A stretch of 34,115 nucleotides of DNA from Phycisphaerae bacterium. Its GTDB lineage: Bacteria > Planctomycetota > Phycisphaerae > Sedimentisphaerales > UBA12454. Below the pieces are notes generated by a model that saw only the letters and a program-made list of their open reading frames with translations, searched no databases and was not told the DNA's origin. Made by a program: the position numbers and the translations under genes. Shown piece by piece: positions 32,653-34,115 of this stretch; the stretch's first letter is position 1, and each line of letters opens with the position of its first letter. The DNA lies in NCBI GenBank assembly GCA_026386845.1, contig JAPLMW010000093.1, positions 1 to 34,115 of the forward strand, given 5' to 3'.

Positions 32653-33897
32653 ATGCCGGTTTTTCAATATGAAGCATTGGACTCAAAAGGCCAGGAGGTA
32701 AAAGGCCAGATAGAGGCTCTCAGCGGCGATGAAGCCCTGAGCAAGATACGGAATATGGGTTATTTTCCCACCAAGCCGCCCAAGCCGAAGGGCGGGGCCC
32801 GTGAAAAGAAGACTGCGGCGGCGAGACCAAAAACGCGTCGCGGAACAGGCGGCAAGGTAAAAATAAAACAGCTTACGCAGTTTGCCCGGCAGCTTTCGAC
32901 GCTTCAGGACGCGGGTCTGCCGATACTTCGTTCACTCAGGATTCTGGAAGAACAGCAGAAGGCGGGCACGTTTAGACGCGTTATCGGCGCTGTAGCTGAT
33001 GATATAGAAGGCGGAGCGACATTGTCGGAGGCGCTCGGTAAATTTCCGCGGGCGTTTAACCGGCTGTTTGTCAATATGGTTGCGGCAGGCGAGGTCGGCG
33101 GCGTGCTTGATGTTATTCTCGCAAGGCTTGCGGACTTTATGGAAAAGTCCGAGCGGCTCAAGGCCAAGGTCAAGGGCGCGATGGTTTATCCGGTTGTGGT
33201 TATGACCGCCGCGTTTGGTATAGTTATGGGATTGATGATAGGAGTAATTCCGAAATTCAGCGAAGTTCTCAAGGAGATGACCGGCGGCGAACTGCCCGCA
33301 CTTACTAAAATTCTTATGGCAATAAGCGACTGGATCGCGTTCAAATGGGGCTGGGCAGTAATGATTGCGATACCGTTCGGAATAGTTTTTACGATGAGGC
33401 TTATAAAAAAGTTTACTCTCGGCAGGTTGATACTTGATATGATTAATCTCAGGCTTCCGGTTATCGGCCAGCTTGTTTACAAGGTTTCTGTCGGGCGATG
33501 GACAAGGACGCTCGGGACTCTTATCGGCGCAGGCGTGCCGATACTCGAGGCGATAAACATAACCGCCGATACCGCGGGCAACGAGGTTTATTCGAATATG
33601 CTTCGCAAGGTATATAACGCTATCCGGCAGGGCGATACGTTCGCAAATCCGCTCAAACAATCCAAGACCGCCGATAGTCTGGTGGTGAATATGATTGATG
33701 TCGGCGAAGAAACAGGCGATATGGACAAGATGCTTACAAAAATCGCGAACAATTACGATGAAGATGTGGATGTGCTTGTCGGCTCACTGATGAGTCTGCT
33801 CGAACCGATAATGATTATTACTCTTGGCAGCATCGTAGGCGTCATCGTTCTGAGCATCTTTCTGCCGATGATAAAAATTATTACATCGCTGATGTAA
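32653..33897 (+). CDS. PilC/GspF-family inner membrane platform protein
   Basis: FQYEALDSKGQEVKGQIEALSGDEALSKIRNMGYFP, FARQLSTLQDAGLPILRSL, GEETGDMDKMLTKIANNYDEDVD, C-terminal TM. Confidence 0.95.
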   Translation: MPVFQYEALDSKGQEVKGQIEALSGDEALSKIRNMGYFPTKPPKPKGGAREKKTAAARPKTRRGTGGKVKIKQLTQFARQLSTLQDAGLPILRSLRILEEQQKAGTFRRVIGAVADDIEGGATLSEALGKFPRAFNRLFVNMVAAGEVGGVLDVILARLADFMEKSERLKAKVKGAMVYPVVVMTAAFGIVMGLMIGVIPKFSEVLKEMTGGELPALTKILMAISDWIAFKWGWAVMIAIPFGIVFTMRLIKKFTLGRLILDMINLRLPVIGQLVYKVSVGRWTRTLGTLIGAGVPILEAINITADTAGNEVYSNMLRKVYNAIRQGDTFANPLKQSKTADSLVVNMIDVGEETGDMDKMLTKIANNYDEDVDVLVGSLMSLLEPIMIITLGSIVGVIVLSIFLPMIKIITSLM

Positions 33898-33905
33898 TTT
33901 AAACA

Positions 33906-33960
33906 GGAAGTAAGGAAGTCCTTCGACAAGCTCAGGACAGGTAAAGAAGTAAGGAAACAA
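33906..33960 (+). repeat. Octamer array interrupted by CCTTCGACAAGCTCAGGACA (33920-33939)
   Basis: GGAAGTAA-GGAAGT-[ccttcgacaagctcaggaca]-GGTAA-AGAAGTAA-GGAA compared with the intact array at 12851. Confidence 0.85.
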
Positions 33961-33964
33961 TTTT

Positions 33965-34075
33965 AAATCGGTGTAATCCGCGAAACTTGTCCGCCATAGC
34001 CTTTGGCGGCGGCGGGTCAGCGGTTAAAAAAGTTAAGATAAATCAGAGTAATCCGTGAAATCAGTGGTTAAAAAA
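33965..34075. repeat. Two copies of a 36-nt repeat (33965-33985+34017-34031; 34040-34075), the first interrupted by a 31-nt GC-rich palindrome
   Basis: AAATCGGTGTAATCCGCGAAA-[31 nt]-TCAGCGGTTAAAAAA vs AAATCAGAGTAATCCGTGAAATCAGTGGTTAAAAAA, 32/36 identical. Confidence 0.9.
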
Positions 34076-34099
34076 CAGTTATTATTGAAAGGTCATAAG

Positions 34100-34115
34100 A
34101 TGGAAACGAAAAAGA
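34100..34115 (+). CDS. Start of a truncated CDS (METKK...), position consistent with a pilin-like gene but product unknown
   Basis: ATG at 34100 preceded by GAAAGGTC; only 5 codons in the window. Confidence 0.4.

Follow-up and report, generated by a model that had tools for sequence, protein, structure and literature searches.

The window, by which we mean the whole stretch of 34,115 nt analysed here, is contig C37 of a 2.4-Mb assembly of 96 contigs. Towards its right end, a cluster of intergenic repeats lies between the gene for a GspF/PilC-type inner-membrane protein and a prepilin-like gene that runs on into contig C11. Within the last 151 bases of the contig, a 36-nt repeat occurs twice, once interrupted by a 31-nt unit and once empty; this arrangement at 33965-34075 agrees to the base with the original prediction of a filled and an empty insertion site side by side. 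The features are:

32653-33897, + strand: gene for a GspF/PilC-type inner-membrane protein, upstream of the intergenic repeat cluster
33919-33941, - strand: 23-nt inserted-looking hairpin, CCTGTCCTGAGCTTGTCGAAGGA, with foot CCTG, stem TCCT/AGGA and loop GAGCTTGTCGA
33965-33985, + strand: left half of the filled 36-nt host repeat, AAATCGGTGTAATCCGCGAAA, aligning with 34040-34060
33986-34016, + strand: 31-nt inserted unit, CTTGTCCGCCATAGCCTTTGGCGGCGGCGGG, consisting of foot CTTG, stem TCCGCC, inner part ATAGCCTTTGGCGGC and stem GGCGGG
34017-34031, + strand: right half of the filled 36-nt host repeat, TCAGCGGTTAAAAAA
34040-34075, + strand: empty copy of the 36-nt host repeat

Copy 1 (33965-34031) is split after 21 bases of the repeat, and copy 2 starts eight bases further on. 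Without the insert, both copies are 36 nt long and share 32 of the 36 bases, which is far above the chance expectation for neighbouring 36-mers; between copy 1 and copy 2, no base was lost and no target sequence duplicated. The insert, originally described as a palindrome, does form a hairpin, albeit an imperfect one, whose 3x3 internal loop is conserved and whose 5′ end carries a foot of four nucleotides. It ends in GGCGGG where the consensus has GGCGGA, so the window copy has begun to decay slightly.

The locus lies at a contig end, i.e., at a branch point of the assembly graph, where a filled/empty pair could arise as an artefact. The next contig (G000:C11), however, opens with an exact 141-base overlap, corresponding to 33975-34115; two contigs that adjoin in the assembly graph therefore carry the insert together with the two repeats. 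As the filled arrangement is, moreover, seen again at other loci and in other genomes, we consider an artefact extremely improbable. A precise excision of the 31-mer from copy 2, with no gain by copy 1, would give an identical filled/empty pair, and excision events have been reported for REPINs (PMC3116915); the original prediction had this reading depend on whether all other copies of the 36-nt repeat carry the segment. They do not. The host phrase is itself a repeat family with 15 uninterrupted matches in the same genome (at most three mismatches), and the fetched loci together hold 25 empty AATC-type phrases and three that are filled at exactly this point, as counted with a strict pattern that leaves out the decayed window copy. 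Because empty phrases outnumber filled ones and the 31-mer also sits in unrelated hosts, the gain of the 31-mer by copy 1 is the better reading of these sequences, and its loss from copy 2 very unlikely.

A genome-wide search for the unit, proposed along with the original prediction, located it at about 12 places in its own assembly: the 20-nt palindrome core was listed 12 times (at most three mismatches) and its reversed control not once, two of the 12 rows being duplicates, since C11 repeats the window copy and one copy in contig C77 was read on both strands. The copies in this genome and in family members share a consensus of 30-32 nt, which consists of a foot CTTG or CCTG, a 6-bp stem, the inner motif RNAGC-N(2-7)-GCGAM and the stem again; folded as DNA, it gives the 6-bp stem, an internal loop of mismatched bases and a small cap. 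Across 205 loci, the inner motif lies between fully paired 6-bp arms in 162 instances and between arms with five of the six pairs in 28. Compensated stem changes were found (TCCTCC/GGAGGA, TTCTCC/GGAGAA and TCCACC/GGTGGA), and the stems CCCGCC and TCCTAC also occur with their complements, TCCGCC being the majority stem in part through the use of a TCCGCC pattern to fetch many of the loci. The foot is CTTG in 75 and CCTG in 38 of the 162 fully paired units. The ends of the unit could be defined from filled/empty pairs, as had been suggested, and they are the same across many unrelated hosts.

The 23-nt hairpin upstream of the filled repeat (33919-33941) splits a CTTACTTC-like tandem repeat and has the same foot as the 31-mer. 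It occurs at 13 places in the same genome (at most three mismatches), and one copy, at locus L009, enters between AAATCCGTGTA and ATCCGTGG, one base from the point of entry of the 31-mer into the same phrase. Its loop, of the type GAGC..TCGA, is common to different 4-bp stems, with small counts (19 fully paired); the 23-mer alone folds weakly. Many intergenic regions of this genome and of family relatives contain degenerate phrase repeats of the AATCCGTG, CTCTGTG and CTTTGTGCC types with a period of some 8-9 nt. Nothing in Rfam matches 33500-34115.

Amongst the matches listed, the strict pattern was found in GTDB contigs of Verrucomicrobia, Lentisphaerae, Kiritimatiellae, Planctomycetota, Omnitrophota, the candidate-phyla radiation, Bacteroidetes, Acidobacteria and Proteobacteria, including Bradyrhizobium isolates. 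When 49 listed genomes were searched again, 47 held 1-27 copies and the reversed control gave none. The unit is present in 67 of 120 Bradyrhizobium genomes; in the phylum of the window, only five of 297 genomes have exact pattern matches, which reflects either a patchy spread or too strict a pattern. In one Bacteroidetes genome, 25 copies have the cap GGAACGCG or a close variant; such genome-specific cap letters point to amplification within genomes. Plasmids and phages were rejected as carriers, since neither collection holds a full-length match. Twelve IMG/VR stretches (L248-L259) carry the exact unit.

A sequence logo of 100 insertion sites shows A or T at +1 (90%), G at +2 (59%), a purine at -1 (77%) and C at -3 (51%), thus an approximate target C-[GT]-R^W-G, with CGA common immediately 5′ of the site. 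Fold energy of the joined flanks is a weak test, as control windows fold too, and we used a tight-loop test instead, counting loops no longer than 8 nt with a closing stem of six or more perfect pairs and shuffling the right flanks among loci for control. By this measure, 14 of the 100 insertions fall in a tight hairpin loop (1.3 expected; maximum of six in 1000 shuffles), and the occupied loops include those of GTAG-type REPs, of CGTC-type REPs and of the unit itself. Filled and empty states that match exactly were found for the hosts AATCNGNGNAA^TC, CTCTG^TG, CATTCCCGCGA^AGGCGGGAATCC, CATTGCGAGCGNAGCGA^AGCAATCC, CCCCGCT^TGCGGGG and GGGCAAAGCGA^AGCGTGCCC. Most targets are other short intergenic repeats, and often they are the unpaired tips of hairpins. 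In the asymmetric host CATTGCGAG, all 16 strict filled matches have one and the same orientation. Self-nesting, a unit within the loop of another, takes place at CCGA^AGCC (L057, L140 and L168); positions ~1-150 of L057, a contig of Candidatus Tantalella remota, contain several such layers. Within 1.5 kb of a 3-kb locus of an order-level relative (L176), two hosts, including the dRS3-like CATTCCCGCGA^AGGCGGGAATCC, are each present filled as well as empty. With exact ends and with many unrelated targets entered without duplication, the units behave as predicted for palindromes that move as discrete entities.

Nearly all the Bradyrhizobium copies listed sit in a few hosts, CATTGCGAGCGNAGCGA^AGCAATCC, CCCCGCT^TGCGGGG and the loop of a GTAG-type REP; many copies of the first start with CGTC and end with CCA, like CGTC-1 REPs (PMC3733652). 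Beside one gene, a unit occupies the GTAG-REP loop in sequence L260, and the exact empty form is extant in L261. Identity between the two is 99% on the right flank and about 88% across 1.4 kb of neighbouring sequence. At this locus, several other species are empty, one sequence (L270) has a partial unit, and L262 is filled; the latter groups near L260 in a tree of the neighbouring 1.4 kb, and its sequence after the REP differs. Polarising the pair by the empty outgroups was abandoned once L262 proved filled. On the sequences compared, the pair demonstrates exact ends, not the direction of change, the sister L262 being filled as well.

The original prediction further proposed that a Y1/RAYT transposase be sought in the genome. 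There are five matches to PF01797 (Y1_Tnp), and for four of these genes the nearest NCBIfam models are REP-associated or IS200 transposases, below cut-off; the strict unit was not found flanking any of the five. One of them is adjoined by variant hairpins with foot TTAA that lack the CTTG foot. These two hairpins, GGCCTTAA[TCCT..AGGA]TGCC, lie on either side of the gene at L030 (~1267-1291 and 1832-1860) and are possibly its cognate REPs. Amongst 64 Y1 loci, four have units or variants, one with a different foot; L175 and L176 are repeat-rich ground, and at 880-2350 of L176 repeats are dense around an IS200-like Y1 gene. A good Bradyrhizobium RAYT gene (L212; 183 bits) has at its flanks the GTAG-REP used as a target and not the unit. 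The REP GTAGGGTGGGCAAAGCGAAGCGTGCCCACC flanks the RAYT genes of Bradyrhizobium at both L212 and L346, the latter with several tandem copies of the surrounding block. Across 120 Bradyrhizobium genomes, the presence of Y1_Tnp shows no relation to copy number (mean 2.3 copies with and 1.4 without; p = 0.62); Y1 is present in 14 of the 17 genomes with at least five copies. The Bradyrhizobium genome behind L153 holds 16 copies and one Y1 gene. Several hosts, G382 (one contig), G344 and G349, have copies in the absence of a detected Y1 gene, and copies reach 10 in a single-contig genome of this kind. Flank scans, co-occurrence and the copy-number correlation gave nothing in favour of a RAYT as linked mover, and the RAYT link that had been suggested for these palindromes was not supported, with neither consistent flanking nor a relation to copy number in the 120 Bradyrhizobium genomes.

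The unit has defined ends, inserts exactly, prefers certain targets, favours loops, keeps a fixed orientation in asymmetric targets and nests within itself. We put at about even chances that the 31-mer is a non-autonomous mobile hairpin joined exactly through single-strand Y1/HUH transposition in trans; the single-strand step, the foot as guide and the class of the enzyme are what we infer from these marks. The unit would move as one short single-stranded piece comprising foot, 6-bp stem, mismatched internal loop and small cap; its foot, CTTG or CCTG, would act as a guide, and it would be joined exactly at about C-[GT]-R^W-G, without duplication or loss, in a strand-specific transposition by an IS200/IS605- or TnpA-REP-like Y1/HUH enzyme supplied in trans. 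Further filled copies probably come about when filled host repeats recombine with empty ones. A foot with a mismatched hairpin, exact joins and targets prone to be single-stranded have been reported for TnpA-REP and IS200/IS605 chemistry (PMC6006769, PMC8266576), and a trans-acting or divergent Y1 enzyme, whose known chemistry appears to fit the marks best, is a possible candidate.

Two other explanations concern the mover and the route of spread. The unit could be mobile and exact, and be moved by something other than Y1/HUH, either an unrelated recombinase or a copying of hairpins based on RNA or replication. The lack of linkage to or co-occurrence with PF01797, the 10 copies in a single-contig genome without any detected Y1 gene, and a tag that differs from GTAG/CGTC all speak for such a mover, which we hold to be unlikely, though a serious contender, as the exact joins, the hairpin with its 5′ foot and the loop targets resemble known Y1 chemistry, and trans-acting or divergent Y1 proteins could fall below the detection threshold. 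Alternatively, transposition would be rare and old, and most filled sites would stem from homologous recombination or gene conversion of host repeats, or from composite spread. In Bradyrhizobium, copies of one host repeat are filled at an identical site time and again, and the L260/L261 flanks show a recombination-like shift of identity from ~99% on one side to 88% over the neighbouring 1.4 kb. Nevertheless, many unrelated host families carry the unit with identical ends, and self-nesting requires an insertion of the unit itself; we rate this account as rather improbable.

We tentatively suggest, with less confidence than for a hairpin moved by a Y1/HUH enzyme, a cross-phylum family of ~30-nt single hairpins that is moved by an enzyme as yet unknown, homes to hairpin tips and lives mainly inside REP-type repeats and itself. 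The unit appears to rank among the smallest kinds of mobile DNA. REP-type sequences are common, and studies of REPINs regard the inverted pair as the form that moves and take single units for dead remnants (PMC3116915); for the single units described here we find exact ends, a site logo, copies nested in themselves and many targets without relation to one another, features that make single-hairpin movement and site choice directly testable in culturable Bradyrhizobium. The unit also offers a possible origin for the mosaic hairpins in bacterial intergenic DNA.

The REP-like reading of the original prediction stands as to shape and mobility, and fails as to tag, REPINs and a linked or co-occurring RAYT. 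Like GTAG/CGTC REPs, the unit is an imperfect hairpin within the 20-40-nt range, with a foot of four nucleotides at the 5′ end and a stem mismatch, intergenic and present several times per genome (30-32-nt hairpins; 47 of the 49 genomes hold 1-27). Unlike them, it has the foot CTTG or CCTG, the terminal tags GTAG and CGTC not being listed amongst the 162 fully paired units; it is single, almost never in inverted pairs, and occurs in tens rather than hundreds of copies, and no RAYT gene is consistently flanked by it, in contrast to REP/RAYT systems (PMC3733652, PMC6006769, PMC8266576). Some GTAG-23 and CGTC-1 REP units have been reported inside other palindromes (PMC3733652); here, the loops of GTAG and CGTC REPs serve the unit as targets. 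The inverted pairs of REPINs are represented by a single case, next to four direct pairs, amongst neighbours within 300 nt in 166 distinct units, and the terminal inverted repeats and target-site duplications of MITEs are absent from the filled/empty comparisons, where the joins are exact.

The cyanobacterial small dispersed repeats, attributed to Elhai et al. 2008, are reportedly units of ~20-30 nt, some of them inside other repeats and apparently mobile, for which no enzyme is known. They would differ from the unit in sequence and hosts, as the unit crosses many phyla and its foot and loop are fixed. Mobile cyanobacterial repeats of very small size are cited in PMC3116915. In the papers searched, also by 10-11-nt sequence fragments, we found no cross-phylum family of single hairpins with a CTTG foot that enters REP loops; at least one such fragment occurs in 117 papers, and none of the 25 listed concerns a repeat of this kind, to judge from the titles. 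The hairpins associated with class 3 TnpA-Y1 genes in Planctomycetes, Acidobacteria and Proteobacteria have the foot CnGA and flank the class 3 gene (PMC6006769). They resemble the unit in their atypical, non-GTAG foot, overlapping phyla and possibly high copy number, whereas the unit has the foot CTTG/CCTG and no linked gene. The ends of IS200/IS605 elements also have a subterminal hairpin with a guide and are joined without target duplication; here, however, no coding element lies between two ends, and it is the single hairpin that moves. The unit is REP-like in its working and perhaps uses the same class of chemistry, yet it stands outside the tested definitions of GTAG/CGTC REPs, REPINs and MITEs.
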